64,000 nt of DNA from Geranomyces variabilis (lineage: Eukaryota > Chytridiomycota > Chytridiomycetes > Spizellomycetales > Powellomycetaceae), in contig JADGJP010000009.1 of the NCBI GenBank assembly GCA_027603065.1, positions 613,031 through 677,030 on the forward strand, in the 5' to 3' direction. Under the pieces are notes generated by a model. It did not search any database, was not told where the DNA came from, and worked only from the letters and a program-made list of their open reading frames with translations. A program made the position numbers and the translations under genes. Shown in pieces: positions 7,204 to 50,648 of the stretch. Position 1 is the first letter of the stretch. Each line of letters starts with the position of its first letter.

Positions 7204-7348
7204 TGCTGCTGTCTTGTCCGAGTCCGTGAATTTAAGGGAACGGACCAAGCGAAAAAGCAAGATCGCAAATGACCGGCTCCTATACTTTTGAACCAACAGT
7301 TTTTGTCAACCTACCAACACCCACATAGACACCCACATAGAGCTAACT
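7204..7348. promoter_or_regulatory. Shared divergent promoter of MYG1 and the COBW-domain gene
   Basis: Only 145 bp separate the two ATGs. The sequence includes a near-perfect repeat of cacccacata at about 7318-7338, directly 5' of the plus-strand gene. Promoter function is inferred from position; no specific factor site is claimed. Confidence 0.4.
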
Positions 7349-8565
7349 ATGGACGAATACGACGAAGAGCCACCGATTCTTGTCTCGGAAGAGCAACCCG
7401 CTGCCGCCGCAAACACCGCAGCTTCCGCATCACTCGACGACGACTGGCCGCCAGAAGTCAAAGTGCCCGTGACGATCGTTACAGGGCACTTGGGCAGTGG
7501 AAAGACAACATTAATCACACGGCTACTCAACGACGATACGCATGGAAAACGGATAGCGGTAATTTTAAACGAGTTTGGCGAAAGTTCGGGAATCGACAAG
7601 AGCTTGACGATGAACAAGGATGGCGAAATGGCCGAGGAGTGGCTCGAACTGGAAAATGGATGCCTTTGCTGTTCGATCAAGGACGCTGGTGTAAAAGCTG
7701 TGGAGAACTTGCTGAAAAAGAAAGGACGGTTCGACTATATCATGTTGGAGACCACCGGACTTGCGGATCCAGGGCCGATTGCGTCCATGTTTTGGCTGGA
7801 CGACGAGCTGCAGAGTGAGATTTACCTGGACGGAATAGTCACCGTAGTGGATGCCAAGTTTGGGATGGCACAGCTTAAGGAGCACTCGCAAGACGGCACT
7901 GTGAACGAAGCTGTTCGACAAATAGCGCTTGCCGACCGCATCATTTTCAACAAAATTGACATTGTCACCGATGAGGCTGCCAACGAGTTGGAGGCTGCAA
8001 TTAGGACCATCAATGGCGCCGCGCCGATAACCCGAACGACGCGGTCTCAGGTTCCGATAAACCAGCTACTTGACTTGCATTGCTTTGACAATGTGTTCCA
8101 AGATCCGTTTGCGCTTTCTCGAAAGCCGGCCGTAACAGGCGGCACCTCAAACCATATTGACGAGGCTGTCGGGACGATTGTGTTTTCGGCCCCTGGCGCT
8201 GTCGACCTCGCCAAGCTGGACACGTGGCTGCAGGGTCTGTTGTGGGAAGGCACGCTAGTCGGGCATGGTCGACTGCAGGATGTCGAGGTTTTGCGGCTTA
8301 AGGCACTCATCAACGTTGCGGGCGACGACCGCAAGCACGTTGTCCAAGCGGTACGCGAGCTGTACGACAAGCAGCAAGGGGCCCGATGGGAGCATAGCGA
8401 GGAGCGAATAAATAAAGTGGTCATCATCGGTATGTCACTCGCACACGAGCAAACCCTCATGTCATTAGGATGATGAAAAACTCATAGTCGAAATTTGTTT
8501 TGACAGGGAGACAAGTAAAGGGCATTGATTTTGAAGCATCCTTTCGACAGAACTGCGTAGTATAG
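7349..8565 (+). CDS. COBW/CobW-type GTPase (ZNG/G3E family metallochaperone)
   Basis: Exons 7349-8429 and 8507-8565 give 379 residues. The acidic N-terminus leads to a G3E GTPase domain: P-loop [20 protein letters not shown] switch region, the metal-binding CLCC motif in [11 protein letters not shown], Walker B-like [10 protein letters not shown], and the NKID base-recognition motif. A CobW C-terminal domain follows ([21 protein letters not shown]), with [16 protein letters not shown] running into a second small exon ending [12 protein letters not shown], the usual family C-terminus. Family members load zinc or other metals onto client proteins using GTP. The 77-nt intron removes an apparent early stop at about 8473. 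The gene is divergent from MYG1. Confidence 0.92.
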
Positions 8566-12887: not shown

Positions 12888-14276
12888 TCAATCTTGTTGT
12901 TTCGGCGGCGCGGTGCTATCTGAGCCAGGCTGCCGCCGTGTGTAGTACTCGTTTGGGATGATGGTCAATTGCCGGCCAATTGAGCCAAACATCACGGATG
13001 CAGAGTACATCATGCACGGAAACCAAGACCGCACGCCAAAAAAGTCGGCTTTTGTAAAGCTAAAGGGAACCCAACAAAAAAGGGGGACTGTTAGCCGATG
13101 CAATCTCTGCGCATCGGCGAGCAGATGCTCGCGTGTTATCATAACCCTCACCTGTACATCCCGCTTTGCACAAAGAACTGGGCGACCCACGTCCCGACGA
13201 CCGCCACAATGAGCGATACGGCAAAGCCGTGCAGCGTCCGGTCAAACATCAGCCATAACCAGACAGCAGAGAGACCCAGAACCAGCGAGACCTGCATGCT
13301 GCTCGTCCATGGCAGTTTCTATACACCAGGAAGGATTTTGGAGATTAGGAACAAATTGCTTTCTACACACAAAGGTAGCTCGCTACGTGACTTTTGGCCT
13401 TACCGATGTGGCATAATTTACTCCAATAAACCCACCGCAGCATCTGAATTGACAATGAGGAAAAGGGAAGCCAAAGGTCAATGTCAAGGCAAGAATGCTT
13501 ATGAAGAGGGAAAGAGAAAAGAAAGGAAAAAACTCTTGCTTCGCGGAGAGGGATGCCGAGCGAAGGCTTCGCCTTCGCTCCCAAAAAAAAAACCAAAGGT
13601 TTCGCTTTGCTCCGCAAAGAAGAGGAATGCTCCGCTTCGCTTCGCAACTCGCTTCGCTCCGCAGCCTCGCTCCGCAGCTTCGCTTCGCGTCATACCTTAG
13701 AACATTTGACCAGTCCCGCTTATACCTATGCGGCCTGCCAAACAAGCGATAGTCCAGCAGCGGATACAAGGTGCCGACCAGACACGCGCCAAAGCCACAG
13801 CACAGCGGCACCCACGAGGCCGTTTCAAACAGCTGCGAGACGTTTCGTGGGTATCGCGTTATGTCGTGTTCTTGCTGAAAGTGGTCGATGATGACGGAAA
13901 AGATAAAGCCGAGGGCGAACAGGGCGATGGCTTTGGGTGGGTAGTGGAGGAATGGAGAGGCTGTTGTGGATATGGTAGGCGGTGGTGAAGGTGGTGATTG
14001 TGGTGATTGTGGTGGTGGTGAAGGAGGAGGAGGAGGAGGAGAGCGTTGGTGCTGGGAATGCGGCGGCGGCGGCGGCAGCGGTTGTGACGGCTGCTGCGAG
14101 GGCGGCGGCTGCCGTGGTGGAGTCATTGGCGAAAAGAAGAGCGTGCTGGCGGGGAGAGAGTGGCGGTGGGAGTGGGAGTGGGAGTGTGTGTGGTGGTTGT
14201 GGTGGTTGTGGTGGTGGTGGTTGTGAAAGTTGTTATTGTCGTTGTTGTGATGGCGGGTCGTCAGAAGCGTTGACAT
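12888..14276 (-). CDS. Insulin-induced gene (INSIG) homologue, ER sterol-regulatory membrane protein
   Basis: Exons 14276-13696, 13443-13404, 13318-13152 and 13059-12888 give 319 residues. The N-terminal ~100 residues are Asn/His and then Pro/Ser rich and are not part of the family core. The core matches INSIG closely: ALFALGFIFSVIIDHFQQEH, SWVPLCCGFGACLVGTLYPLLD, PHRYKRDWSNVLR, then across a splice FIGVNYATSKL, WLWLMFDRTLHG, VGTWVAQFFVQSGMYSFT, and finally RSWFPCMMYSASVMFGSIGRQL. Six membrane segments are expected. INSIGs hold sterol sensors in the ER and promote HMG-CoA reductase turnover; yeasts have Nsg homologues. The first intron (252 nt) is filled with CTTCGC-type repeats. The start at the ATG 14276 is a choice, as only a TTG lies upstream. 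Confidence 0.88.
13444..13695 (-). repeat. Simple CTTCGC/GCGAAG-rich repeats inside INSIG intron 1
   Basis: The central part, about 13545-13690, is a mosaic of short units such as cttcgc, ctccgc and gcaaag in both orientations, able to form hairpins. The intron ends remain clean (GTATG donor at 13695, TTCAG acceptor at 13444). Confidence 0.7.
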
Positions 14277-14333
14277 GTTGTTGTCTGGACCGGCCAGAGA
14301 CGAGACATACAAGCGCAGGTGCGGTGCGGGGGA

Positions 14334-14335
14334 GC

Positions 14336-14366
<31 letters not shown>

Positions 14367-14368
14367 AC
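14334..14368 (+). repeat. (CAGA)n microsatellite
   Basis: About eight uninterrupted CAGA units lie just 5' of the INSIG start, in its presumed promoter or 5' UTR. Confidence 0.95.
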
Positions 14369-14699
14369 ACAGAGAGTACAGTATAATATGTCAAGAAAAT
14401 ATTTATACGCACGCAGCAGAAAGAACGAGGTACAAGCAAGCAAGCAAGGAACAAAGGCGAGGGACGGTTCTGACTGCGCGGGGAATCGGGCGGGGTTTAT
14501 TTTGTTTTGTACAGTACAGTACGGTATATACGGTATTTCCTTCCTCTTGCTTGTTTTTAATCGCGCGGGGGCAGGCATCGGCCGACTCACACGGCAATGC
14601 GCATGTCTGGCTGAGAAGGAGGAGGTCGCGCGATGGCCACTTTCTCACTTTCACATGCCAACTGTGTCACGCGGCTCATCGCTCGGCTTAGTCAGCTGA

Positions 14700-20911: not shown

Positions 20912-21622
20912 GCTCTGATAGTTTCGTAAAAAGACTTTTGATTTGGTGATGCTTTTGCAAAAAGGCCGAGTGTCTGGGCTCTTTGCTATTTTTAGGCATG
21001 ACGCTTTTTCGCTTAGAAAATGAGCGTCAAAGGGAGCGACCAAGACGGTTGACAGGAAACAGAGAGTAATGGCACAAACAGAGGACCATACGAATGGAAA
21101 CAAAAACCTTCGAGTGACGACTGCTGTCCGCCGTGACGAATAATACAGGTTCCCTGGAAACGGCGCCCTTGTAACTTTAGACGGAACCTAATAGAGTCAT
21201 TATGACTCACAAAGTACCCCGCTATTTTGAATTAGCTACTCACAGGGTTTTCCCAGGCCGGCTTCATTATCATCATATCCGCACGACTCTTGTCTCCGTT
21301 TGTAAAGCATGTTGATGAGTGAGTGTTTATAGCCAGTGTTTATACGGGGGGGTTTCTAAACACGGCAGATAAGCATACAACATGGCCGCCGCCGCATGTT
21401 TGAAACGACGTGATAAAGGGGCAAGGGCCAAGCCACGTCCGCCGCTCAAAGGAATAATAATATCAGCATCGGCTCGCAACAACGCCAGCATAGGCTGGCA
21501 TCCCCCGCTAATCCCCCCCCCCCCCCAGTAATCCTCCGTGCTTTTCATCATCACCATAACCATCATCACCCATCTTCACCATCATCACATAATTTTCATC
21601 TTCACATAATTGCAGGTACTGC
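20912..21622. other. Intergenic region between the 7TM gene and chitin synthase
   Basis: Divergent upstream region. It contains a run of ten C residues near 21516 and CAT-repeat DNA (catcatcacc) at about 21545-21600 just before the chitin synthase start. A ttgcag immediately 5' of that start could be a 5' UTR splice acceptor. Confidence 0.45.
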
Positions 21623-24600
21623 ATGTCTCAACACCCCGCTCCTCCACCGCGCGCAGGCTCGCGCAGGCCGCCAAGCTGGGATGACGGCGGAATGTTATCG
21701 ATGTACAGCGACTTTCCCATTCCCAGCACTCCCGCCCCCGCTAGTACAGCTGCTGCTGCTCCCTCGCCTCTCCACCAAGGGCAAGGCCAAGCGCAAGGGC
21801 AGGAGGACTACCAATACGGCCGCCGTCCGCCGAGCCATGCTGCCGCAAGGTCTTACCAGCAACCGCAATATCCGCAACCAGCGGCCCTTCGCCCGCCTTC
21901 CTCCGTCAACACTGCCGCAACAAGTGCGTCTTCGTCGTCTCCACCGTTTTACACTTCAATCCTCGCACAACCGTCCGTGAGCTTTGATCAGACGCCTCCG
22001 CCCAAGTCAGAAAAACGCGGAGTCGCGTTTGCAACTGAAGCCGTCCGCGCCGCCAACAGGTTCAGGAGCCAACCCACTAATGGAGAGTATGACTCGGAAC
22101 TCTCGTACCTCGAACCGTCCCGCCCAGCGATGAACCCACGAACCAATACCCGCGATACGCTAATGTCTCTATCGGGCCCACCATCTCCGGGCGGCCTCCT
22201 GCCGCGACGAGGCACCGTCCGAACGCGCAAGACCATCAAGCTTCCTTCCAGCGGGAACTTCACCATCACTTCGCACTTGCCCGAATCGCTGCTCAACAAC
22301 GTCGCGTATTCCAAGGGCGAAGAGTTTGAGACGGTCAAGTACACCGCCGCCACCTGTGACCCTAACGACTTTGTCGCCGACGGATACACGCTAAGAGCTG
22401 CCTCTCGCGAGACGGAGATCGCCATTGTCGTCACGCTGTACAACGAGAGCATCGATGACCTCAACCGGACATTCTTTGGCTTGTTCCAAAACATCCAGCA
22501 CTTTTGCCAGAAGCGCAAGCGAGGATGGGATGTCGACGGATGGAAAAAAATTGTCATTTGCCTTGTCGCCGATGGCCGGCAGAAAGTTTCGCCTCAAGTC
22601 CTTACTGCGCTACAGACGATGGGCGCATACGTTCCAGGAGTGGAGCAAGCAAGGGTTGGCGAAAAGGACACTACCTGCCACATCTTCGAATCCACCTGTC
22701 AGCTGGTTCTCGACCCAGCTTTGCAGGTTTGGACGACAAACAACGGCATTCCGCCTGTGCAGGTCATCTTTGCCATGAAGGAAAAGAACCTCAAGAAGAT
22801 CAACTCGCACCGTTGGTTTTTTTCCGCCTTCTGCCCTCTCCTTTCGCCGAAAGTGTGCCTCCTCGTTGACGTTGGTACTCGGCCGGCGAAGGACAGCATT
22901 TGGAAACTTTGGCGGGCATTCGATCGCGACGAAAACTGCGCCGGCGCTTGCGGCGAAATTCGCGTCGACATGAATTGGAAGGGACTATTGAACCCTCTGG
23001 TCGCCTCCCAGAACTTTGAGTACAAGGTCTCTAATCAGCTTGAAAAAAGTCTTGAAAGTGTTTTCGGATACATAGGCGTGTTACCTGGCGCTTTCTCAGC
23101 CTACCGGTACAAAGCGCTTCTCGAATATGCGCCAGCCCGCGGGCCTCTCGCAAGCTACTACAAAGGAGAACAACGACCAGACACTACCGATTCGACAGAG
23201 ATTTTCACTGCAAACATGAATCTCGCCGAAGACCGCATCTTGGCCTTGGAGCTCGTTTTGAAGCCGCACTGCCGGTGGACACTTAAATACGTGGCCAAGA
23301 GTGCGGCAGACACGGACGTGCCAAACACCGTTCCGGAGTTTATCGCGCAGCGCAGACGATGGCTGAACGGATCATTTTTTGCCCAAGTAAGTGCGAAAAG
23401 TATCCCAGACCCTCAGCACCCAGAACACTAAACCTAGCCCTGCTCTTAGATATTTTCGCTTGTCAACATTCCGCGCGTTTGGCGGACGGAGCACTCGATT
23501 TTTCGGAAGGCCATGTTCATGCTTCAAGCGGTCTATTCACTTATCTCACTTATCTTTGCATGGATTGGCCCGTCGCAGTTTGCAGTCGTGAGTTCTCTGC
23601 TAGTGCTCGCGCGTGTCGCGGCGACACGGAGTGGGTCTCACACGTTTGCTCCCTTGTCCCATCTAGGTCTTTTTCTTCCTATTCTCCTCCGACCAACTCA
23701 TCAACATCGTACCAAAAGCCGTCTCCCTCCCGTTCTTCTTCCTGTTCCCCGCCGTTCTTTGCGTTCTCTTTGTCGCCAGTTTGGGAAACCGGCCGCAAGC
23801 ATCGAAGGGAATATATCAAGCTTCGATGGTTTTGTTCGGCTTGATCGGAATCGCCATGATGGCTCTCCTCGGCTACAAAATTTCGCAGCTTTTCACCGAC
23901 CACAAGGGTCTTGGCAGCGTCTTCGAGATTGGTAGCGGCATGTCTTATATTTTTTCCATTGGGGTACGCACGTTGTGGACGCAAACGGTAACTTGGTTGT
24001 TGGTGCAGTTTTACTGACATCTGTTACATTGCAGGTAACCCTCGGCGCATACGTTGTCGGCGCTTTCCTGCAGGGCGACGCGTGGCACCTCGTCAACGGG
24101 AGCCTGTTCATGTACATGGTCTGCTTGCCAAGTTACATCAACGTGCTACAAATCTACAGCTTTTGCAACCTCCACGACGTGACGTGGGGTACGAAAGGAG
24201 ACAATGGAGGCGCTGAGCTGCCTAAAGTGGCGCTAATCCACTCTGCAACTGGAACCCATGCCGATGTGCACGTTGCTGAACGAAAAGATCTGGAGGAGAC
24301 GTGGCGGCAGGGGATCTCCGAAATCAAGAGGATTCATGAGATGCCGCAGGTGAAGGTCGTGGATCGACGATTGGCGGTGGAGGATTCTTACAAAGCATTT
24401 CGAACAAATCTGCTTTTGGCTTGGCTTACGACGAATCGTAAGTTGCAACTGCTGGTTGCGTGCTCAGCCAGGCTGATGTTCTTAAAAATGCTGACATGTT
24501 CTCTCATTTTTTTCTTTCATTTACTTCCTTTAGTTGCGGTCTTTGCCGTCGTCACGCAGAGCTCGCCAAAGATTCTCAATATTTATGTGGTCGGTCTGCT

Positions 24601-25978: not shown

Positions 25979-27745
25979 CTACGGTAATGAGCATGGTGCA
26001 GAAACGTCAATGACCATATTATCGCCATAAACAATAACGCCATCATGCCGTCGTGAGAGCGGCGGCTGCACGGTATTGCCAAACACGGCAGCCCATTCCA
26101 TGCACCGCTTGTTGTTGAGACCCTCGTTTTTCCACTGCTGGAAATGGACCTGAGGCACCTCGATCAGAGCGGGAGCATCGGGACGCGGCTGGATGGCGGG
26201 AGAGACGCGGACGTCCAGGGCGGGCGTGGACGAAGCGGCGAGAGCGGCTAGGTATGGCGCTGGTACCGGTGACGGGTCGAAAAACAGCAGCTGGACATCG
26301 TCCTTGCGGGACGACAGCGCGAGCGCGGCTTGGTCGCGGACGGCGCGGACAGCGTCGTGAGCTGGGTGACCCCAGTCGAGACGCAAACAGACCGTGTCCT
26401 GGGCAGGATAGTGCAGCCCGCAGTCCTCTTTGCCGACATCGACAGGTACCGAGATGGCCAGATGCGGCCTGCCGGTATATGGCCGCGGCGTGGGCGGGTA
26501 TTGAGCGGTGGGATCGAATGGGTTGAGCCACGCGCGAGCGGCAAGTGGTGCAAAAAGGCCGAGGCAGTCTGCACGTTCTTTAAGCGTGCATGCGAGGATT
26601 GTGTTGCCGAGGATGATATAGGATGGCGCCCAATCGATGAACTGGTGGCCCCATGATGCGAGCTGGATAGGCAGGATCGCAGTGTGGATGCCCAGCGGCG
26701 CCTGCAGCACGGCTTGCGCGTAGCATCCTTCGTCCAAAGCCTTCCAGTGGTCAATGCGGTATTCGGCGACGAGATTTGGCAGGTTGCGGAGAACCGAGCA
26801 TCGGCGCCACAGACGGTTGACAACAAAGGCGCGGTCGGGATCCTGTTGCATGTGAGCGGTAAACTGACCGTGGGTGTAGTGGCGGTGCATGTCGCCCGCA
26901 GACAGCGAAACAACGTCCGGGATCCACGGCAGCGGCGAGCCGGGTGCCGGAAGGGACAAAAAGTGAGCGAGGTCTCCGTACACTGTGTCGACGTCTGTCC
27001 AAGCCCAAGCGGAGCAGTGGTCGGGCCCTACATAGTCTTCAAAGAGCGAACCGTACGCGCCGCGGAGCTGGACCATGACGCTGGCGCCGTGAGGCTCCAG
27101 GAGGCTGTACAGCTCGGCGCACTGGTCTTCAGAAGGCTGTGACAATTGTTCGGCGGCTGCGACTGCGGCCCAGGCGGCACGGTCATCAAAATGATCATCA
27201 GCAGGAGGATTCGGATGGGCGCGGTAGGCGGCGCAGAGGCGATCGGTTGCGAAACCAGGCCAGCCGGTAGAGTTGTATTTGGAATTAATCGATGCGATAT
27301 CCACGTAGCGAAAGTTGGGTGCCCCGGCCAGCGCTGGCGGAAGCCGGTACGGCAGTGCGGCCGTGTTGTGAACAAAGAGGTGCAGAGAAACCCAAGGAGC
27401 GTTGCGCGCGAGCGACTCGAGAAAGAGGTCAGAGTAGGTTGGCATGCTAGCGCCGTCCCAGGTAGCAACCAAGCAGAGCGGAGTTTTGGCGGGCGCTGCT
27501 GCTGCTTGTCGCCGAATATCCTCGGCAGAGCCTGGCGGCACGAGGAGGGAGCGAATTCGGTTGGTTGGCACGACATCGGCGGGTGAAACAAGTTTGTGGA
27601 GAGGTTTAAGCCATGGCGGCAGGCGGCGGAGGGGAAAAGCGTGTTGGAGTAGAGCAAGGGCGAGCAGCAGAAGGATGGCGGTCAGCACACAGGCAGAGCG
27701 GCGTGCTCTGAGAGGACCGGCCGCAAGGAAGAAGCGTCCTCGCAT
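25979..27745 (-). CDS. Type II membrane glycosyltransferase-like protein (DxD motif)
   Basis: A single-exon 588-residue protein. A basic N-terminus and one signal anchor (TAILLLLALALLQHAF) suggest a Golgi type II membrane protein. The luminal part has TPLCLVATWDGASMP, a WPGFATDRLC segment, MVQLRGAYGSLFEDYV, and the acidic metal-binding motif in WAWTDVDTVYGDL, as in families with a DxD site that binds nucleotide sugar. YTHGQFTAHMQ and LWRRC follow. The family looks like the fungal DUF6625-type proteins; the sugar and acceptor are unknown. A paralogue with the same order of motifs lies head-to-head at 28166-30039. This copy has no intron, while the other has one inside the domain. The ATG at 27745 gives the anchor directly. 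Confidence 0.75.
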   Translation of the reverse strand: MRGRFFLAAGPLRARRSACVLTAILLLLALALLQHAFPLRRLPPWLKPLHKLVSPADVVPTNRIRSLLVPPGSAEDIRRQAAAAPAKTPLCLVATWDGASMPTYSDLFLESLARNAPWVSLHLFVHNTAALPYRLPPALAGAPNFRYVDIASINSKYNSTGWPGFATDRLCAAYRAHPNPPADDHFDDRAAWAAVAAAEQLSQPSEDQCAELYSLLEPHGASVMVQLRGAYGSLFEDYVGPDHCSAWAWTDVDTVYGDLAHFLSLPAPGSPLPWIPDVVSLSAGDMHRHYTHGQFTAHMQQDPDRAFVVNRLWRRCSVLRNLPNLVAEYRIDHWKALDEGCYAQAVLQAPLGIHTAILPIQLASWGHQFIDWAPSYIILGNTILACTLKERADCLGLFAPLAARAWLNPFDPTAQYPPTPRPYTGRPHLAISVPVDVGKEDCGLHYPAQDTVCLRLDWGHPAHDAVRAVRDQAALALSSRKDDVQLLFFDPSPVPAPYLAALAASSTPALDVRVSPAIQPRPDAPALIEVPQVHFQQWKNEGLNNKRCMEWAAVFGNTVQPPLSRRHDGVIVYGDNMVIDVSAPCSLP

Positions 27746-28165
27746 TAGTGTGTGGGCGGTCGAGCAGCTTGCTTTCTCTGTCGCGCGCGCTGTCTGAAAA
27801 AGATAGTCGTTCCCTAATGGCTTTGTGCCTTCCTGCGCTGCTTGAGTGCGTGCGTGGGTGGCTCCTCGCGCTATCTAAAGTGAAGAGACGATGTTGTTGA
27901 ACTGTCGGAGAAAGAGACGAGGAAGTTCAGAGCAAATGTCGGGACTTGCAAAACTCCAGAAAAAAAAAGAAGGAAAACCAAAAGCGGCCGCTGACACTCC
28001 GCTCACTCCCTCTCCGCCTGCTTCCTTCCTTGTTCTTCTCCAGCAGCAACGGCAGACAATCCGACAAGAAAACCACCCCTTCACAACCAGCAGTAGTAAC
28101 ATTGTATTCATTGACATAGGGCGTCCGTCAGGCTACAGTCAAACTACTTCAATCCCCGCAGTCAA
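27746..28165. promoter_or_regulatory. 420 bp divergent region between the two glycosyltransferase paralogues
   Basis: A shared upstream region. An A-rich run lies near 27960. Bidirectional promoter use is inferred from geometry only. Confidence 0.35.
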
Positions 28166-30039
28166 ATGGGCCTCAGGTCGCGCGCTGCGGCAGTGCTAGG
28201 CCGTCGCAACACTCGCCGTCGCCGCTGCCAGGTACTTTCTCTCGGCCTGCTGGTGGTACTCGCTGCTGCTGCCGCTCTTCTGCATTCGCCCGGCGCCCAT
28301 CACCCGCGTCACCACACCTGGCGTCTTTGGGACAAGAAAGATAGCACTGGCAAGCAGAGGCTACCCGGTGTGTCGGGAGGGCAAAGTGCTGCACGTAACA
28401 CACTCGAACACTTTTCGCCAGCACGGCCGCCAACGCCGGTCTGCCTCGTCGTTGCCTGGCAGCAGGGCGACCAGCTGCCAGCCTATGTACGCACCTCCCT
28501 CGACACCTTTGGCGCCGCAACCAGCACGGCAGCCCCAAAGTCGTCGTCTTCCTCCTCCTCCTCTTCGCCATTTGCCGAACTCTACTTGTTTCTGCCACCG
28601 TCCATGGGAGTCCGCTCCATGGAAGACCTTTATGACGGGCGCCGCAACTGGCCCTCAAACGTGCACGCCGTTGATATCGGCGAAGTGGACCCTGCCTGGC
28701 GCCAGCACGGCTGGCTCGGCTTTCTCTCTGACAACCTGTGCCGCCTGTACGCCCACGGAAGTCACCGCCACAGCAAATACCGGCCATCTGCATTGACTTC
28801 CTGGATGTTCCCGTGGTCGTTTTGCAGCAAGCTTCGCAATGCTGTACACAAAAGCCTTGTTAAAAACCGCAATCCCTTGGGTAAGCAGAACAGAGACAGG
28901 AATGGAGAGCGAGCGGAGCTCCTCTATTAGTTGCATGGAAAATCTCGCCGCTCCTGCTTGCTAACTTTTCCTTCCCTCTTCTTTTCCTCCTTTTTCAATG
29001 CTTGTTATTAGTCCAACTGCGACCAGTGTATGGCGACCTGTTTGCGCCATGGATAAACTCCGAGCGCTGCTCGACCTGGGCGTGGGCCGACTTGGACACG
29101 TTATGGGGCGACCTGCCGGGACTGTTAAACGCGCGGCTGCTGCTTTCCGACAGCGACGTCTTCACTATCTCGTTTGGCGACGAGAACCGCGTGTATACGC
29201 GCGGTCAGTTTACCGCGTTCAATCATGCACTGACGCCAGCTGTTGACACGGCGTGGCGCCGGTGCGAAGACTTGGAATCTATTGAGAAAGCTACTGAGTT
29301 TTTCGACAGGGAAGGCTGGGCTGCTCTCGACGAGGGCTGCGCGGCGAACGCTGTCATATCGTCGGGGTTGCGATTCACCGTCATACCGATTCAAGAGCCT
29401 GACGGCGCCACTCTGATGCGATTTGACCGCGGCGTGCTGATGGCATGTCGCGTCGCCGATCGCAAACGTCAAGGAGCAGTCGCCCGCGCCGCCTGCCGTG
29501 TCGCCATGCGTGACCGCACCAACGCGCTGCTAGCCGCCGCGAGTCCTGGCCACAAACGCGTATCGCCGTTTGCTGCAAAAGCGACTGAGACGCAAGCGCT
29601 GCAACTGCAGCAGCCGCCAGATTGGGAGTCGTCCTGCGCGGGTTGGCTGCCCTCGAGCGAGACGTGGTGTGTCAAGCAAGGCCGGTTGTGGGACCGCGAA
29701 GCGTGGTGGGCCCAGCGCGTGAATTCGGTCCCGCCAGTTGGGGACAGTAATTCGAGAGAGTCTGTCAGCCAGCGGCATGCGTATCCGGCAGCAATGGACC
29801 CTCGCAAAACGGTCGTGTTTCCCACAGGCCAAGCCAGCTTGGAAATTGAAGTATACGAAGTCGCTGTCTTCCACATGCAAGGTTGGAAACGACACCTGAT
29901 CCCGACGCACCAGTCGGACGACCTGGACGCTCGCGACCTGGTCGCTGGGAGCGCCGTTGTTGAGGTTTATGAGGAAGGAGAGGGTGAGCCCGCCGAGGGC
30001 GAAGAGCGAGGCGTCGTTCTCCGCGTTGTGCGGGTCTGA
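28166..30039 (+). CDS. Type II membrane glycosyltransferase-like protein, paralogue of the 26-27.7 kb gene
   Basis: Exons 28166-28880 and 29012-30039 give 580 residues. It has a basic N-terminus, a signal anchor (LSLGLLVVLAAAAALL), a Ser-rich insert, then the same blocks as its neighbour: TPVCLVVAWQQGDQLP, WLGFLSDNLCRLY, VQLRPVYGDLF, the acidic motif in WAWADLDTLWGDL, YTRGQFTAFN and AWRRCEDLE. The intron lies exactly before VQLRPVYG, a position uninterrupted in the paralogue. The C-terminal third is diverged, and an acidic EEGEGEPAEGEE tail ends the protein. Its role is probably protein or cell-wall glycosylation in the secretory pathway, inferred from topology and motif only. Confidence 0.72.
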
Positions 30040-39399: not shown

Positions 39400-39955
39400 T
39401 TGCTTTATGTTGTCCGCGTTCCCGTCGTTTCTGGCCCTTATTGCTTTTGTTGAAGGACCCAAACCCGAACCCGGCGCATGCTCCGGCGCAAGACCCTCGT
39501 CTCCCCGCCCCTCCGGCTCGGCAACCTGTGGTCAACCCCCCACAGTCGCCGCAGCAGCGCGGCGTGCCCCCTCGAGGGGAGTGTACCCTGGTGTCCAGCC
39601 ACCATGCGCGCGTGATTAAGAAAGAGTAAGATTGATGTGTTTTCCGTTTTTCCGTCTTGACATTTCCATACTGACTTTAAGTCTAGTGGACAGTTCGTCC
39701 TCCGCGTCCAGGTTCCAACGCTCAAGCTGGCAACTGTCCTTGCCAAGGGACCCGCGACGGACATTGAGATCCGGGCTGAACTACAGGAGGACGAGGAGGC
39801 CGTCCTTGCCTCCAATGAGGCCCGACTCGCTGGACCTTCGGGTCACCTTCCCCGCGCCTGTCGAGGACGACATCGACATGGCCTTCAAGGGATGCCTGCT
39901 GACCGTGTCGTTTGCGAAGCAGGTCCAGCGGAAGCGAATGCGTATCACGCTCAAG
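39400..39955 (+). CDS. Hsp20/alpha-crystallin-like protein, frame-disrupted
   Basis: A Pro-rich stretch (PNPNPAHAPAQDPRLPAPP) ends HHARVIKK, then a GTAAGA donor near 39627 and an acceptor near 39686 give KKDGQFVLRVQVPTLKLATVL and DIEIRAELQEDEEAV, like the first half of an alpha-crystallin domain. The second half, LDLRVTFPAPVEDDIDMAFKGCLLTVSFAKQ, follows in a different frame, so a one- or two-base shift lies near 39800-39830. A GTGGGT donor at about 39956 may lead to another exon. Small heat-shock proteins are ATP-independent chaperones. The start was not resolved. It could be a pseudogene or a sequence error. Confidence 0.4.
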
Positions 39956-40789
39956 GTGGGTCAAAACAAAAAAAGAAAACGCGCGATACGCATTCTCTTT
40001 CGCTGGGCCTGCTTCGGGAATCGGGGGTTGAGGGATATACTTACTGCCGTTTTTCTCAATTACCGGTAAGCAGCAGTAGTTCGTGCTAGCCCGCCCTTCT
40101 TTTCTTTTTTGCATTTTTTTTTTTTGTTTCACAAACATGCGGCCCCTACATATCATCTTCTTTATACGCCGATCAATTTCGAACTCTTGCGCACATCTGA
40201 TACAATTAGGCGCACGCCCATCCAATCCACAGTCTCCGCCAAAGTGGGGCGATGTTCCGCACACTCTGGCCCGCTCAGCGCTGTCCAAGGCACTCGACGG
40301 AAGGCGAGTGGAAGGCAAGCGGCAGACGGGTGACGGGTAGGCTCCGAAAGCTGCAGCGGGAGCTCTGTTAACAGCTACATAGCACGCTTGAGGGAGATAC
40401 TTGGGGGCTAGGCCGACCCGGGGGGGGGGGGATAGTAGTCACTTAAAATAGGTAAAGCTTGAAACAAGAATGAGTCACCTATGACTAAGCTGCAGACACC
40501 GGGTTTCTGCTTTCGCTCGAAAGTGGGGAACACGGTCGTACCCGAAGTGGAAAAAATAGAAGCGCCACTAATCGTGACCATCCCAGAGTCTTCGACCTGG
40601 ACTGGGCCTGGACTCCGGGACTGTTGGTTGCCAGTGCAGTGGAATTGGGCGTGACGTCGCTTGGGCTGTCAGATTCGGGAGACTCCTCTGTCTCCCGCAA
40701 ATCTAGGAAACTCGCATAAAGACCGGCTGTATGTGTGCGGAGTTCTCTTCATATCAAGACCTTTTAAAATCTCCAGCGGACGATCAACA
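39956..40789. other. Region without a supported gene
   Basis: It has a T-rich tract near 40113-40127 and a run of G at about 40420-40430. No supported gene or domain. The 3' part is the promoter of the receptor gene. Confidence 0.45.
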
Positions 40790-43700
40790 ATGCGAAATCT
40801 CTTTCTTGTTGTCCTCCTCATCAGCCATGCGATTAACGCTTCAGCCGACACTCCGTTCCAGCAAGATCCCGTCACCGCTCGCACTTTCAAAGATGTCCCA
40901 GATCTGAGGATCTCAGTGGTCGGGCACGGAAACGCGGGCACCAACCCTGCAGGTAGAGAGTCATCCGCATAGTCGCGCAAAAAAAGCCGGTCCTCACGTA
41001 CAGCACTCACTCTAATTCCTTCCAGCATTCTGGCCGACGTTGTGGCGTGGTATTGGGTGAGTGTGGCTGATTGATTGTATATTGTTTTGCGTGATATATC
41101 GAGCGAAATTTAACATTCAAATCTTGCTCGCAGGGCCGCCGCGAGGTGCGTAAATGCCCTGACGCCGGTATGATGCTGCCATCGCCTGTGGTAACAACTA
41201 ATTGCAATTCGCTACTTTCGCCCCCATATCAGTCTTCTCGGCGTGACCATCTGGGCACCTCTATACCAAAGTGCTTCGCCCAGTGGAACGGGTTATAATA
41301 TACAGCTGTGAGCTCTTCCATCGCCTGCTTGTGAGCCCACCAGAGCGGAGTGTGTGACTTCTTGAACATCTTGCAGATGGGCCGACACCGTTGCCAACCA
41401 CAGTGACGCTCTCGTCACAACATTTAACGATGTTGTCTCGCAGAAATCTCCTTTGCTTCAAGATCTTGCGGCTGCGCCAAACATGCCCTTGATGGTGTAC
41501 AATTCTGGGCTCAACTACAGTTCAGTCTTGAAGCCAGTCACATATGTAGGGTGGGCTGACTGGCAGGCAGGCTTTCTTGTGGGACAAGAACTTGCCAACC
41601 GCGGGGTTCAGCGTATCGTTTGCGTCTTCCGAGTGCTTGGCCGCGCCGACTTTCAAGATCGCTGTGCCGGCGCTGTCACAGCAATGAATTTGAAGTACGG
41701 TCGAAACGACATCTGGACCAACGAGACGACAAACCCGCTAAATTATGTGATGGGAACGACGGACAACATTCCGCTTGAAAATCTTGTGGCGGGCTTCCAA
41801 ACTTATCTTGCGGCAAACGTCCAAATTGATGGTGTGCTTGCGACTCAACAGCAGGTGGTCGACGCCTGCTACGGTGCTTCGCAGAATATCGCCACCAACG
41901 ACCCATCCAGGTCCCCTGTCGCAATTGGCGTTGTGGATTACAGCTCTAGTGTGATAGGAAAGGTCGCTGTGGCAGCCCACCAGCAAACTTGGTTGCAAGG
42001 TGAGCATTTGAGAACCCAAAGATCAGAAGCTGCCGTAAGATTTTACGAAATGCTGTCCTTTCGCTCTAGGTTTCGTCCCATCCATTTACATGTATCTCAA
42101 GCTACTTGTCAACGAAACCGTAACTAACCCGATTGTCGCTACTGGACCGCTGCTCATTACCAGCTCGACGACGGCTGCAGGCAACGCCGCGGTGGCCCTT
42201 GAAGCACAGAGTTCCGTGAGCTCCGCACCCGGCTCCATTGCCTATCTGAGTCACTTTCTTGGTCTCGCAATTTCGGACCAGCTGTACAGAGGTGTCTCTC
42301 AAGCGGCTGCAAAATGGGGGTTTTCGCTGCCATCGGCTTGGGTTCAGAAATCCACAGCATATACACTGCCGATTTTTCAGGGACTTGTGGACACGATCCT
42401 TTTTGGGTGTCCAGCATCTTGCCCGGTGGGAATTGTAACCACGGATCCGGGAGACGACTATCTCAACTACCTATCTACGCGAGCCGCGGCGTACAACGTA
42501 CGCGTTACGGTCATTGGCACCCGGAGCGCTTCTTACTCTCCAAGCCGTGCCGGCACACTCTACGTCGGAAGCAGTGACTATGATATCGGCGTTTCGGCGG
42601 CAAATGCCATGCTGGCCAAGGGGGTCAGAAAGCCCATGTGCTTTACCATCGACCAGCTGACTACGGCAACCACTATCTCCAGATGCCAGGGACTGGTGGA
42701 CACTTTTACTGCGGCTGGAGTCGCCGGCGTCAGTTTATCGACTTCTGCCGCCTGGGTCGATGCTTACAACACACCGACTGCCAAGCTGATCATAAAGCCT
42801 TTTTTGGCTTCGTCCCCGCCGGATGGGTTCCTGTGCACCAACGAAGTGATCTGTGAGGCTCTCGTGCTTAGCCTGAGTGACGCAAAATTGACACCTAAAG
42901 CCGTAATCAGTGTGGGAATGTCGCCTGCGAATGCTGTCGCCATGGGCCAGGGACTGCTCACCCATTACGTTGATGTTGCTCCCTACGCATCAGTATGTGC
43001 GGCATGCGGAAAACCTTTTCAAAGTTTGCGTCGCTAAGCGCGCTCACCTGCTGCACTTTAGGGCTTTCTGGCAGTCACAAACCTGGGCATGGCCGTGAGC
43101 CTGAAAGCTCAACTGCTCGGCAACAGTCTTACCGTCGGAGGCGAAATGAGAGACTGGTAAGGAAAAACGGAGGCAAAGCTCTTTCGCGAAGAAGCTGACG
43201 CGTTTGATGCATTGCAGGGTGTGTCCCCCGGGTTATCAGATCAACTCGGCCTCGAGCGCAACCTTGTACAAGACTCTCGCAAGTGGCGCGACGGGCTACG
43301 GCTCCATTTGTCTTCCGTGTGCACCAGGCACGTACACTGAGAGTGCCAACCAGCTGCAGTGCGCCACCTGCCCATTCGGGACGTTTTCCACTCAGATTGC
43401 GACAAAGCAATGCGCAACGTGCTCGCACACTAACGGAGCAGATCAAGATGTTTGCCAGGTGTACTTTTTGTCCCTGGAAGTGCTCCCAAGTGAAGGAATC
43501 AAAGGGGCCCTTTTTGCTCTCGCGGCTGTCGGAATCCTGGTTCAGGGCGGCATTGGAGCCGGGCTCCTGTTTTTGAGGCGATTCGCAGTTATCCGAGGCG
43601 CCGCGCCGGTGATGTCCATCTTTATTACCCTCGGGGGCCTTGTGGCCGCGCTCTCTGTCATTGTACTCCAGTCAGGGCTTTCCAAGGCGGTTTGCGTTAC

Positions 43701-45111
43701 TCACTATTGGCTGCTCGCGACGGGGTTTTCACTGATTGTCACGTAGGTTTCGCGAGCCGTTTCCGTTTCTGTTTTCTCTGGCAATATGCTGATTTAGTAC
43801 CCGCGCTTCCCTTGCAGCCCTGTGATCGTCAAGAACTACCGCATGTACACTATATTCTTCAATCCAAAGTTACGTGGCAATATTCTCGGAATATCGACAA
43901 TGTTGTCGTGGCTTGCGGTGGTCACTGGAGGGGAATGGGTAGGAACATTCCCGCCGTTATGCGATACATTATCTTGAAAGTGACTGGGCCCTATTTCCAG
44001 TTCCTGCTAGCTCTATGGACAGGACTAGATGCGCCGACAAAACAGAAGTTTTCAGACTCGACCGGCACCTACTCGCTTTGCTCGTCCAAAAGCTCGTCAA
44101 TGCAAACGGGATTTTCCGCCGCACTTCTGCTATACAATGCCATTCTCTTGATTTCCGCACTCCTCGTTGCGAATTTGACCAAGGCGATCAAGGATAAGAG
44201 TTTCTCCGAGTCACTCTATGTCGCCTTGTAAGTTCGAATGGCCTTTGCGCACGGGCGCGCAGCGCTTTGAATTTTTGCTGACTGTACTGCCATGTGAAAG
44301 CTCCATGGCCGGAATCGCCATTTGCGCAATTATTGCTGTTGCTGCCGGTTTTATGCCAAACATCGATCTTCCGGTTCGTTGGGTTATTGTGAACCTCGCG
44401 ATCATTTTGGGGTCCGTTATTGTGCCTGCCATCTTGTTTGGGAGCCGCATCTCGCTCGCCTTCCGAGAGAAAGTTACTGAAGATCAAGCCACGACTGGGG
44501 ACGGGGAGGTCGTCAAAAAGCCACTGTTTTCCTCGAAGGCAAGAACTGCTACCGGATGATCTAAGGCCATCGGTCGCTAACATGCTTGTTTGGTCTCGAC
44601 AGGGCAAGGGAGCGTCTGCGCATATTGGAGTCGATGCTGCCATCCTGGAAGGCTCTGTGGTTACGAGATGGGTGGGAGTGACAGCGTCGCTGCTGCTTCC
44701 AAGCCCCTTTCCGTCATGCGTGGTCCTTCACATTTCGCGAGACGCGGTCGGTGGACTCAAGTCAGCGCTAAGAAACGTTTGACGCGAACTAATATGACAA
44801 AATGCCTACAGGAGCATCAGGAAAAGGGGGATTTTTATATCATATCCGCGATCAAAGAGAACTGCTATCAGATCGACACCAAGACCGAGTCTGAGTATCT
44901 GGTCCTTGTTAGTGGAAAGGCGTCAAAGACCCGGTTGATATTGCAATTTTCTGACCAGGCTCAAATAATTGCATGGAAGGATCTGATTATGCGCGCCATT
45001 GGGAAATCAGGAACCGGCGCCACTTCACATTCATCCGCTGAAGGGTCAAACACGAATGCAGTTGCGGCTATCAAGAAGAGTGCGTTGGAAACCGAGGAAG
45101 AGGAAGTGTAG
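40790..45111 (+). CDS. Class C-like GPCR with two tandem periplasmic-binding domains
   Basis: Exons: 40790-40952, 41026-41056, 41134-41145, 41233-41307, 41377-41999, 42070-42992, 43062-43156, 43218-43742, 43818-43938, 44001-44227, 44301-about 44540, then a tail exon ending 45111. Signal peptide MRNLFLVVLLISHAINASA. First PBP-1 domain (LRISVVGHG, GVTIWAPLY, YVGWADWQAGFLVGQEL, DGVLATQQQVVDACY, GVVDYSSS); second PBP-1 domain (SHFLGLAISDQLYRGV, VGIVTTDPGDDYL, VGSSDYDIGVSAANAML, DGFLCTNEVICEA). A Cys-rich stalk follows (CPPGYQ, CLPCAPGTY, CATCPFGTF, CATCS), then seven membrane segments including HYWLLATGFSLIVT and KNYRMYTIFFNPK, hallmarks of class C receptors. The tail (ARRGRWTQVS, GDFYIISAIKENCYQI, LILQFSDQAQIIAWKDLI) looks PH-like. 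It is probably a surface receptor for small solutes such as sugars. The final splice (about 44540-44610) is unresolved. Confidence 0.8.
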
Positions 45112-45348
45112 TTGGAAGTGTTAATGTGGAATCTTCGTGCGGCGAGAGCTGGTTCTGTGTGTGTTTCTTGAGAGTTCTTGTCAAAAATGTGCCACATGTT
45201 TTCAAGTCCAGAGCTCTTGCGAACCTGCCGCGGCTGTCAGGAACTCACCCTCAGGCTGCCACGGTGACTCACCGCCCGGGGCCGAAAGATAGAAAAAAAA
45301 AGAACCTTGACATGCCAAGAACTTGCAACGGCAGCCACCACCGCCACC
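45112..45348. other. Intergenic region between receptor and ankyrin gene
   Basis: It holds the receptor 3' flank and the ankyrin gene promoter; a run of A ends near 45302. No gene. Confidence 0.5.
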
Positions 45349-47405
45349 ATGGGCGGCACTTCCCCGCTCTCCACCGCAGCGACGATTGACCGGCTGTCCG
45401 CCGTACCCGTGCGCAACGTCCTGCGCTACGTTAGCTGCAGCAAAGACTACGATGCCATCACCGGAGCCTTTCGAAACTTTCACGCTGTCGGCAGAACCCC
45501 CGCCGCCGTCCTCCAGTTTCATCTTAACAATCTCCGTCGCTCGATCCGAGACTATCCCGGCAAATCCGGAGAAGAGATGTGGGACAGTTTTTTCCCCCAG
45601 GAGCTGCAGCAAATGTGGAGGGCGCTCCGTCTCAGGAACGAACTCGGTCCGGCACGAGCCCCGCCTAGTGTCCCCCGTGACCCGTTTGATGGTGTGTATG
45701 GCACGTTGGAAGCTATGATGACCAGGGATGGCGATGGCAAAGGCGTTCCCACCGTAGCCGACTATCCAGAGTGGTCGGACGTTCTTGCGTACAAGCTGCC
45801 TGCTGGCGGGGCACTGGTGTACCGCTCGCCAGAGTTTTGCTTGCAAGTTTTGGAGCTCGCACGCCTTCTGCACGGCGACGAGTGCCGCTCGGCATTGGCC
45901 AACCGGGACAGTGCCACCCGAATGTGTCCAATTTCACATAGGTTCCATAACGCAAGGATATGGCCCGCGGGGTATACTCTCCTTCTCCGTTATGCAATGG
46001 TAGCCCTCGACATGGTCGGCGCCAACGCGACCCACCTGCTGCCCTACATCTACTGCTCGCCGCCGCTGTTAGAAGCTTATGTACTCAACGGCAGTGACAT
46101 TTTTGAGCAGGAAGAAGTCCTCAAAGTTCTCGGAATTGCGGACGAAAACCACCGCACGCTGCTTTCGATCGCGATCCTAAAAGCGCAACCACGGGTTGTT
46201 AAGGCCCTTTTGGAGTACCGCAAAGTCGACGTCACTGCGCACCACAACCAGGCCCTCGCTGCGGCATGCTCCATGGGCCACATGGAGCTAGCTAAAGCCT
46301 TAGTGGCTTTCGGGGCAGATTTGAATGATGTTGGCGGCGGCGGGCATGGTTATGCACTTCCCATCAACTTTGCCGCTGCCATGCGGGACGCTACACTCCT
46401 GGATGATTTCCTTGCTCTTGGTGCGGAGCCCAATATATCTGGCCGCGAGGGCGAGGCCCTTTTTCTCGCTGTTGGGGCAGTTGTCCGAACGGACCTGCAG
46501 GGCTTTCACGACTTCTTGCGACATGCTGGCCCAGATGGCGCACCGCCGCTGCCCATCGCTTACCAGCTCATGAGAAGAGGGTTTGTCCTCGGCCCTCTCC
46601 GCGACGCCACGTTTTTGCTTGCAGCGTATTCGGACAATTCCAAGATCATGCTAGAGCTGTTCAAACATAAGCCGATGCGGGGGGACCAGGATGCAATCGA
46701 CACGGCGCTATGCATTGCCTCGCTGACGCTCAACCTTGAGACAATCCGCTTCCTTGCGACTCTCGGTGCTGATATGAACTGCCGCAAAGCTATAGGTGGC
46801 GGCCACGCGCGGTCGCCGCTTGGCTGGGCCATGCGCGCGTCCGGATTACCGGACCGCCGCGACATGGCGAGGCTGCTGACTAGCATTGACCTGCTTACGC
46901 GGCTCGGCGCTGACGCGAACGATGCCGCGATTCTGGACGAATTTCTGGTAGCCCCTCTTACACAGCCAGGTGACACGCAGCCAGCAGAGTTTGTCGAGGC
47001 GACTCGCGCACGGTTCTTGCTTCTCGCCAGGGGTGGCAGTGACTTTCGTCAGTACGTCAGCGGGTATCTGCCTCCATTCCCGACCGACTGCTTCCGCAAG
47101 TTTTATCAATCTGATGACGTTGCCGATGACGATGGCGCTGTGACGTCTGTGCATTCAATGCACCGCTCACGGAGCGCTTGTTGACAGCCGAGGAAAAGGC
47201 ATACGATTGCGCGGAGTTTGAGGATGAGGATTACCCGTGGGGAACCCTGTTTCGCGCGCTGCTCGTGCGCGGGATGGATCCGTACACGTGGCCCGAGAAG
47301 CATTACTTTGAGCATTTGAAGGAATGGGGCCCAAGTACTATTAAAGTGTTTAAGGAGAAGCGGTGGAAGCAGCGGCATAACAGGAACAAAAACCACAAGA
47401 TATGA
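45349..47405 (+). CDS. Ankyrin-repeat protein, C-terminus in a shifted frame
   Basis: The ATG 45349 sits in a strong context (ccgccaccATGG). The first frame runs 611 codons to a stop at 47184. The N-terminal region (VRNVLRYVSCSKDYDAI) may be a divergent F-box. Degenerate ankyrin units follow, for example TLLSIAILKAQPRVVKALLE, ALAAACSMGHMELAKALVAFGADLN, INFAAAMRDATLLDDFLALGAEPN, ALCIASLTLNLETIRFLATLGADMN and PLGWAMRASGLPD. A further coding-looking stretch (LTAEEKAYDCAEF, EDEDYPWGTLFRALLVRGMDPYTWPEKHYF) lies in another frame to 47405, also ankyrin-like, so the true end probably needs a splice or frameshift near 47130-47170. Such proteins mediate protein contacts; the partner is unknown. Confidence 0.65.
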
Positions 47406-48727: not shown

Positions 48728-48954
48728 GGAAGTGCGCGAAGGGGGAGATGGCGGTCAGGATGTCAGCATGCTAAGAGAGCTTCGCAAAACGCGTGCAACC
48801 CGTGACGCGCCATTTGGGCGACGTTTTTGCGCCAGGTACTAGTAACGAACGGTCTTCGCATGTTCCAAGCTTCGATTCTACCAGCACGTGCACAGTTGAG
48901 CCAGCGGAAATTTGGACGCCGGAGGCCAACCTCAGTAAAATAGGAACAAGCGAA

Positions 48955-50648
48955 ATGGCCGCGGGCGCGCTGAGCTCTTGCCTTAAGGGCTTCCGCATTT
49001 CATCACTGTCACGATTCCAAAAGGACTTCGTCTTCTTCCCTCAATCTGTCGCGGCTTGGCTGCGTAAAATCGGTGAACGGTTGTGGGTGAGCTTCTGGTT
49101 CGTGCCCATTGCCACCATCACCCTTTTCGCAGCCCTCGCTTTCTTGATGGTTCAAGTAGACAAGTGGGCAAACGTTAGCTTCCAGCGAGGCAGGTTTTGG
49201 TTCATTTTCGAGAATAGCATCAATGCTTGCCGCGACGCGTTGAACACTATTTCCAAGGGATTCCTGAGCATCTCTGGCGTCACATTTTCCATCCTCTTGG
49301 TGGCATTTACAATGGTAAATATCTCAGATGGTCAACTCAGGCTGTTACCATCTATCTCCGTCCCTCTCTCTGACGCCGGAACGATCACTAATCGACTAGT
49401 ATCACAACCACAGGCTGCGAATCGCTATACTCCACGGCTTATCGCAACATTCGCTGAAGACAAAATGACCCAAGCCACTCTAGGCACCTTTCTAGGCATC
49501 TTCCTTTACGGGCTCATTGTTCAACGCTCTATCGTCTCCTATGACGAAGGCGAGCGCTTCTTACCCCACCTTAGCATTCTCCTCGCCTACGGATTGACAA
49601 TGGGCGGGCTTTTCTTGTACGTCCTGTTTATTCACCACGTCGCAGTTCACCTGCACATCAACGGCATTGCCGCCAGACTGGCCGCGCAGACAACTGCTTC
49701 CATGATCAACTTGTTTCCGACCCACCTGGGGCAGCCCATCGAGACCTCCGAAGAGGAGCAGGCTGATGAGGGTTGGATCAGGGAACTTACGAAAAGCGAG
49801 AGCGGCGCTGATAACCCCGGGGCGTCCTGGCTTCCGGTCAGGGCCGGAAACTCGGGCTACATCACCAGTATCGACGACGCGGCACTACTAAAGTGGACCG
49901 ATGTGGCCGATATCTTAAACCGTATGGAACATGCCGTCGGCACCTTTGTCGTCACCAATGAACCGCTGGGATATTACCGCCTTCACAATCGCTGGTCTTC
50001 GTCGTCACTACCCGGTCCCACCGCGACGAGAGCAGCGTTCACTCCCTGACCCCGCGGTACATCTTGCGCACTTACACCATCTCCCACGCGCGCAACGTCC
50101 GCCAAGATCCCGAATTCGGCCTGCAACAGCTTGTCGACATCGCGCTACAGGCTCTGTCTTCATCTCTCCACGACATCAGCACCGTACGCGTCTGTATCGA
50201 CTGGCTGTATAACACCGTGCGTATCGCTGCCGATCGCAAAGCGCCCCCGCGCGTGCGATGCTGCAAGGCGGAGAAGTACGACGGACAGAGCAGGGCGGAC
50301 AAAGCACGCATTATCGCTGTCGGACCGACCTTTGAATCCATGCTCCACACTGCCTTCGTGGATCTACGCCAGCACTCGGTGGCACAGGTCGCGGTCCTCC
50401 GCTTCCAATTCGAGGCGTTTCAGAAACTCGCTAGCGACGTGCGCAATGTCCGGCGGCTCCAGATCTTGGAGGATTTCGTCCGGCTGTATGAACCGCTCAC
50501 GGAAGCTAGCATCGACGCCAAACATGACCGGGAGCAGATTAAGCAAGCTTATCAGCATTTGCTGGAAGCCATCGACCGCCATAGGGTGCACTTACTTCAG
50601 GAGGAACCGAGGGATGAGACATTCACCCACGTTACGCTTCCTATGTAA
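48955..50648 (+). CDS. Bacterial-type DUF2254 membrane protein, one frameshift
   Basis: It is intronless. The first frame (ATG 48955 to stop 50049) has four membrane segments: SFWFVPIATITLFAALAFL, ISGVTFSILLVAFTMV, LGTFLGIFLYGLIVQRSI and HLSILLAYGLTMGGLFLYV with FIHHVAV, then ARLAAQTTASMINLFP, SGYITSIDDAALLKW and EHAVGTFVVTNEPL. The family's C-terminal block (RNVRQDPEFGLQQLVDIAL, QALSSSLHDISTVRVCIDWL) follows in another frame from about 50050 to 50648. Together these match the DUF2254 family, which is mainly bacterial and of unknown function. The break lies between about 49985 and 50049. No GT-AG pair of usual size repairs it, so a real frameshift (pseudogene) or a sequence error is likely. 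Horizontal transfer is inferred from family distribution and the lack of introns. Confidence 0.72.

Follow-up and report, generated by a model that had tools for sequence, protein, structure and literature searches.

In a window of 64,000 nucleotides from the chytrid Geranomyces variabilis (contig JADGJP010000009.1, positions 613,031 to 677,030 of the forward strand; positions below are those of the window), we have identified a gene at 40790-45111 that encodes a predicted cell-surface fungal class C G-protein-coupled receptor (GPCR), a distant relative of the animal GABA and glutamate receptors. Its spliced product consists of a signal peptide, two complete type 1 periplasmic-binding protein (PBP-1) domains, a Cys-rich stalk, a class C seven-transmembrane (7TM) core and a tail. 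Both PBP-1 domains match one bacterial sugar/cyclitol-binding subfamily, NF052284 (rhizopine-binding family), and only the first one still looks competent for sugar binding, which would make of the two an asymmetric pair with a sensing trap above an altered trap. We give an even chance to the reading in which the usual single Venus flytrap of a class C GPCR has been replaced by two tandem CUT2-type (ribose/rhizopine/inositol-like) domains, the first sensing and the second relaying. Class C receptors whose ectodomains are PBPs have been described in fungi before; the tandem pair appears to be a new variant among them, and the asymmetry of its pockets is unusual and testable.

Two bacterial-type domains and a class C core in one chain

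When the whole spliced protein was compared with Pfam, 7tm_3 was matched at 5.4e-27 and Peripla_BP_4 at 1e-15 in two stretches, and NF052284 likewise covered the whole ectodomain in two stretches (2.6e-33). Domain 1 matched NF052284 over its full length (1e-20, positions 2-278 of 289) and aligned end to end with the CUT2 solute-binding protein 4ru1 in a sequence search of the PDB (8.4e-10); taken alone against Pfam, it gave no match. Among plasmid records 189 relatives of domain 1 were found, more than half of them in Rhizobium; the best among the matches listed have about 27% identity and, where annotated, are named as sugar-binding proteins. Judging from its subfamily, the ligand of domain 1 is most likely a monosaccharide or a cyclitol. 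The scores against NF052284 (74 bits for domain 1, 47.6 bits for domain 2) are well under the equivalog cut-off of 420 bits, and therefore both domains are to be regarded as relatives of the rhizopine-binding proteins and not as their equivalents.

Domain 2 has a match of its own to Peripla_BP_4 (1.9e-11, 44.5 bits vs a cut-off of 35.1), one to NF052284 over positions 56-253 (1.2e-12), 14 plasmid records at E 3e-3 or weaker and an E-value of only 0.16 in the PDB sequence search. An AlphaFold2 model of residues 354-609, built with 23 bacterial relatives and lacking the 28 C-terminal residues that exon 7 contributes to the domain, reached a mean predicted local distance difference test (pLDDT) score of 79.5 and a predicted template modelling score of 0.69. 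Foldseek returned 533 PDB matches for it at E<=0.001. The best E-value belonged to 4ru1 (1.5e-9), and the top query template modelling (TM) score among the best 50 of the 533 was 0.72, for the arabinose-binding protein 6sw4_B. The TM-score to 4ru1 was 0.53 at 6.2 Å, a low value which perhaps comes from a different opening angle. Domain 2 is thus, as modelled, a PBP fold, with the reservation that a bacterial PBP alignment given as input may bias the model toward that fold. The idea that the second ectodomain region is not a PBP, named beforehand as what would overturn the initial description of this gene, was rejected, being contradicted by Foldseek and by the Peripla_BP_4 and NF052284 matches. 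An ANF-type animal flytrap was rejected as well, as no ANF match appeared in the Pfam scan, in which filtering drops most matches weaker than E 0.1. The ectodomain is therefore of the Venus-flytrap type that marks class C GPCRs, by sequence for both PBP-1 domains and also by model for the second, and not of the ANF family.

Both PBP domains lie in one gene, because exon 6 holds the last part of domain 1 together with almost the whole of domain 2 and spans their junction without a stop. This exon sits inside a stop-free run of 332 codons, a length that none of 500 first-order Markov resamplings of the region attained in a forward frame (maximum 325). The possibility of two separate genes, the other outcome named beforehand as fatal to the initial description, has no backing in the sequence and was rejected on this ground. 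That two genes or an assembly join have been taken for one is a suspicion invited by a model drawn from sequence alone and by the weakness of two splice donors toward the 3′ end; nevertheless, with the PBP junction inside the open run, all exon joins in frame and the doubt limited to the tail, we hold such an error to be highly improbable. The order of PBP, PBP, Cys-rich stalk, 7TM and tail that an earlier sequence-only reading had proposed, with a pair of complete PBP-1 domains on a single chain, is in this way borne out by the spliced model and the profile matches.

The Cys-rich stalk of that reading was also recovered. It is nearest to Ephrin_rec_like (1.1e-4), its 22.4 bits falling slightly below the cut-off of 23.1, and Ephrin-receptor-like domains have been reported for the glutamate-type receptors of choanoflagellates and related ones (PMC12716839). 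Against NCD3G, the nine-cysteine domain, the stalk scored 13.3 bits (E-value 0.076) vs a cut-off of 38.9; NCD3G is not recognised, and therefore the receptor lies outside the mGlu/CaSR/T1R subgroup. The 7TM core matched 7tm_3 over profile positions 5-249 of 251 with 95.5 bits vs a cut-off of 33.5, in agreement with the class C assignment made earlier, and its nearest PDB chains were those of GABA-B2 (1.2e-9), with mGlu2 at 3.7e-6. In GABA-B2 the lock residues are K574 and D688 (PMC8222003). The Lys of the KNYRMYTIF hallmark, K821, and E926 align with this pair at a single constant offset. The core looks competent for signalling.

A sugar pocket kept in domain 1 and changed in domain 2

The ribose contacts of the E. 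coli ribose-binding protein (RbsB) are N13, F15, F16, D89, R90, R141, N190, D215 and Q235 in one list (PMC3676853), to which a second list adds F164 (PMC2630998). With RbsB as the guide, MAFFT was used in three modes to place these ten contacts on 28 bacterial relatives, among which eight of the ten columns are conserved; all three modes agree on them. Domain 1 retains seven of the eight conserved residues (F56, W57, N136, S137, R189, D281 and Q296) and domain 2 only one, R506. The changed positions of domain 2 include I369, S370, G451, T452, G584 and V604, and with them the aromatic pair, the Asn, the Asp and the hinge Gln of the pocket are absent. By the sugar contacts of a CUT2/rhizopine-type domain, domain 1 is such a domain and domain 2 is not; the latter is a member of this type by descent, which does not imply that it binds sugar as the family does. 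The sugar-like ligand proposed in the earlier reading is hence sustained for domain 1 and not for domain 2.

These counts can be set against the retention of other conserved columns, 104 of which were taken from a 23-row bacterial alignment. Domain 1 keeps its pocket above its own average (7/8 vs 38/104, Fisher p 0.007), whereas domain 2 keeps its pocket no differently from its own average (1/8 vs 34/104, p 0.43). The N13 column is included among the eight and counts against domain 1, which without it would have 7/7. The bacterial rows came from the 80 top-ranking loci out of at least 578; 65 of the 80 were aligned and 15 left out (two from Brucella, 13 from Pelagibacteraceae), and a filter at 78% identity reduced the 65 to 23. 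Five plasmid proteins were added to these for counting pocket residues, which made 28 rows; unused among the eight plasmid loci were L001, a near relative of L007, L006, which is truncated, and L002.

Several points weigh against a sensing domain 1 above an altered domain 2. Domain 1 itself has T51 where 27 of the 28 relatives have D. The single residue kept in domain 2, at p 0.43, is an absence of retention, from which a loss under selection does not follow, and its pocket may be one for another ligand. Moreover, the bacterial set was gathered partly with motifs that include pocket residues in four columns, although without these columns domain 1 still has 4/4 and domain 2 1/4; and L002, a divergent plasmid relative without several pocket motifs, was omitted, which favours the claim of conservation. 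The asymmetry is also read from a single receptor, and selective maintenance is not something that one sequence allows to be deduced.

The last of these points concerns the origin of the pair. Internal duplication is plausible, and can be called no more than that because the direct BLASTP match between the two domains is weak (7e-4). In a tree of both domains with 29 bacterial rows, their end branches are 6.5 and 10 changes per column long. Constraining domains 1 and 2 together gave a likelihood 3.28 above that of the free tree and a p-value of 0.671 in the approximately unbiased test; a joint clade of the two is therefore neither shown nor rejected.

A possible relay between unlike traps

Work on how closure of a trap is conveyed to the 7TM of class C receptors has dealt mainly with those of animals, in which each chain bears a single trap. 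With a binding-competent trap in series with an altered one, the present receptor would offer a natural test of a trap as a pure transmitter. From the computed architecture, the common subfamily, the retained pocket of domain 1, and domain 2 with its altered pocket and PBP fold, we infer a relay, dimerization and G-protein coupling that could proceed as follows. Domain 1 would close on a small polyol, either a monosaccharide or a cyclitol. Cyclitols are natural ligands among CUT2 proteins, since a Sinorhizobium CUT2 protein binds myo-inositol (PMC3454389). Domain 2, no longer apparently able to bind that ligand and lying between domain 1 and the stalk, would pack against domain 1 or against a partner receptor and hand the closure on, by way of the Cys-rich stalk, to the 7TM, where the K821-E926 lock would open and a G protein be activated. 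In this receptor the fungus has a candidate sensor of sugars or cyclitols, which may serve nutrient or host sensing in the zoospore.

Perhaps each trap has a ligand, that of domain 2 being another solute, and the receptor integrates the two, as the sequence-only reading had suggested. Domain 2 keeps the PBP fold, the RC motif (R506, C507) and, in the contact column of N190, N559, and so it is not decayed as a fold; yet it lacks seven of the eight conserved pocket residues, which weakens the case for two-solute integration and makes it, in our opinion, unlikely, even if domain 2 may still bind something else. At the other extreme, domain 2 could merely raise the sensing domain off the membrane or the cell wall and take no part in signalling. 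A changed pocket would suit such a spacer, as would the somewhat greater divergence of domain 2, which keeps 35 of all 112 conserved columns where domain 1 keeps 45. Nonetheless, the fold is retained together with the family Cys pair (C492, C507), and domain 2 adjoins the stalk, so that a closure signal must go through it or round it; we find a passive spacer more doubtful still.

Comparison with known receptors bears on how special the tandem is. Among fungi, 96 glutamate-family receptors have been described with ANF, BMP, SBP_bac_1, OpuAC, LysR_substrate and PBP_like_2 ectodomains (PMC3251606), and gut fungi have about 100 class C receptors, many with type II solute-binding protein or pectin-lyase folds (PMC5168858). 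The receptors of Allomyces, Spizellomyces, Batrachochytrium (PMC3251606) and gut fungi (PMC5168858) resemble the present one in having a fungal class C 7TM and a bacterial-type ectodomain and in the absence of NCD3G. They differ from it in that a tandem of PBP-1 domains of the rhizopine/CUT2 kind is not among the ectodomains named in the relevant passages of the two papers. These fungi are also the apter comparison, where the sequence-only reading had fairly contrasted the gene with the single-flytrap receptors of animals. It is a real prospect, though short of an even chance, that PBP modules are freely shuffled among the class C genes of fungi, this tandem being one of many combinations with no special mechanism, which would be compatible with a real gene and with the other readings. 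The great diversity of zoosporic-fungus ectodomains (PMC3251606) and the roughly 100 class C receptors of gut fungi (PMC5168858) speak for it; on the other hand, neither two PBP-1 domains in one receptor nor Peripla_BP_4 is named in those parts of either paper, supplements aside. Similarly, no PBP-1 pair in a GPCR was recognised among the papers listed on tandem or two Venus flytraps, on chytrid and choanoflagellate class C receptors, or on Peripla_BP_4 with 7tm_3, mostly open-access papers covered at the level of abstract openings and without supplements. Nor do the passages on fungal class C receptors in PMC3251606 and PMC5168858 name an experimentally assigned ligand.

Beyond fungi, a close parallel to the proposed asymmetric relay is the GABA-B receptor (GB1/GB2), in which only one of the pair of traps binds. 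GB2 is the nearest solved 7TM, with aligned lock residues. The GABA-B traps are of the ANF type, unlike the CUT2-type traps found here. They lie on two chains and have no Cys-rich NCD3G (PMC12716839), whereas in the present receptor both are on one chain and a Cys-rich stalk is present. It is conceivable, if rather doubtful, that the receptor is a single-chain counterpart of the GABA-B ectodomain, in which a binding and a non-binding trap, distributed in animals over a pair of obligate partner subunits, stand in tandem after duplication of a bacterial-type cyclitol/sugar-binding domain, and that fungi thereby evolved an allosteric relay between unlike traps on their own. The dictyostelid Grl receptors share a class C 7TM and a bacterial-type PBP ectodomain, but that ectodomain is of the BMP family, and a tandem or two BMP domains are not mentioned in the main text of the report (PMC10445921). 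Trypanosome receptor-type adenylate cyclases are eukaryotic receptors which likewise have two extracellular Venus-flytrap domains, with one membrane span and a cyclase, and are not GPCRs (PMC6027212). Finally, the rhizopine/inositol-type CUT2 proteins (NF052284; 4ru1) belong to the same subfamily as both PBP domains, with the pocket kept in domain 1; unlike the receptor, they are free periplasmic proteins of ABC importers.

Gene model, tail and neighbourhood

The gene structure was assembled by hand from the sequence (Table 1). Its 12 introns measure 61-87 nt, and 11 of them start with GT, one with GC, and all 12 end with AG. A CTRAY branch-point-like motif occurs in the 3′ region of 7/12 introns, whereas random 42-mers drawn from the window contain it in 9.3% of cases; the one in intron 12 was in view while that junction was being chosen and is not independent support. 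A 12-nt microexon (41134-41145, +) restores the helix spacing between FW and LGV in PBP domain 1 and is needed for the conserved FW...G...AA..LGV spacing of that domain.

Table 1. Receptor gene of G. variabilis and its predicted features, in window coordinates
Feature	Position	Strand	Details	Basis
Whole receptor gene	40790..45111	+	13 exons, 1158 aa	Splice model from sequence, without internal stop
Exons 1-7	40790-40952, 41026-41056, 41134-41145, 41233-41307, 41377-41999, 42070-42992, 43062-43156	+		
Exons 8-13	43218-43742, 43818-43938, 44001-44227, 44301-44538, 44603-44746, 44812-45111	+		
Signal peptide (predicted)	40790..40846	+	Residues 1-19, MRNLFLVVLLISHAINASA	Read off the translation by eye
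PBP domain 1	40898..42200	+	Residues ~37-345	NF052284 1e-20; 4ru1 8.4e-10; pocket mapping; sequence basis
Exon 6	42070-42992	+	End of PBP domain 1 and nearly all of PBP domain 2	Single open frame
PBP domain 2	42231..43145	+	Residues ~356-637	Peripla_BP_4, NF052284, AlphaFold2 model with Foldseek
Cys-rich stalk	43222..43455	+	Cysteines 643-720	Ephrin_rec_like and NCD3G Pfam scores
Class C 7TM core	43492..44442	+	Residues 733-979	7tm_3 5.4e-27; GABA-B2 chains 1.2e-9
K821 of KNYRMYTIF	43831..43833	+	TM3 lock Lys	Aligns with K574 (3.50) of GABA-B2
E926	44208..44210	+	Acidic lock partner; Asp to Glu here	Aligns with D688 (6.35) of GABA-B2
Cytoplasmic tail	44458..45108	+	Residues 985-1158	Depends on GC-AG intron 44539-44602 and weak donor 44747

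Upstream of the tail stand two donors, the GC of the GC-AG intron 44539-44602 (AAG|GCAAGA) and, at 44747, a weak GT (GCG|GTCGGT). If the GC-AG intron at 44539 is unused, the protein ends at a stop at 44559 and the tail is absent. In searches of Pfam and NCBIfam the tail had no match, and its best PDB sequence match, at E 1.1, was an unrelated protein. A single-sequence AlphaFold2 model of exon 13 alone, in which the exon 12 half of the putative domain is absent, was of low confidence (mean pLDDT 59.6). It places two strands and a helix at 29-33, 39-46 and 49-62, the expected place of the end of a PH domain, and a helix at 2-17 that fits such a domain poorly. As a model it speaks neither for nor against a PH fold, and the PH-like tail of the sequence-only reading, which came from reading the translation, was not confirmed.

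Relatives of the whole spliced protein were searched for in viral contigs, where none was found, and as paralogues elsewhere in the window, where the best tblastn match outside the gene had an E-value of only 0.60. Rfam (at gathering thresholds) and tRNA scans of the 64 kb gave no matches. Upstream of the receptor gene lies a 36-nt inverted repeat (39915-39950 / 39981-40016; 89% complementary, 30-nt loop), and directly downstream of it a long open frame with ankyrin repeats (45268-47181, +). For the wider neighbourhood, 20 of the 67 open frames of at least 170 aa were scanned against Pfam. The genes recognised are a RibD C-terminal domain (123-932, -), a thioredoxin-like 2Fe-2S protein (3700-4674, -), an MYG1 exonuclease (6055-7305, -), a CobW-type GTPase (7292-8470, +), INSIG (13386-14390, -) and a chitin synthase (21593-23428, +), the last of which indicates a fungal source. 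Two diverging frames, at 25982-27874 (-) and 28885-30036 (+), both show weak sub-threshold matches to DUF6625, and a DUF2254 membrane protein (48775-50046, +; 1.9e-47) is found in this fungal contig.

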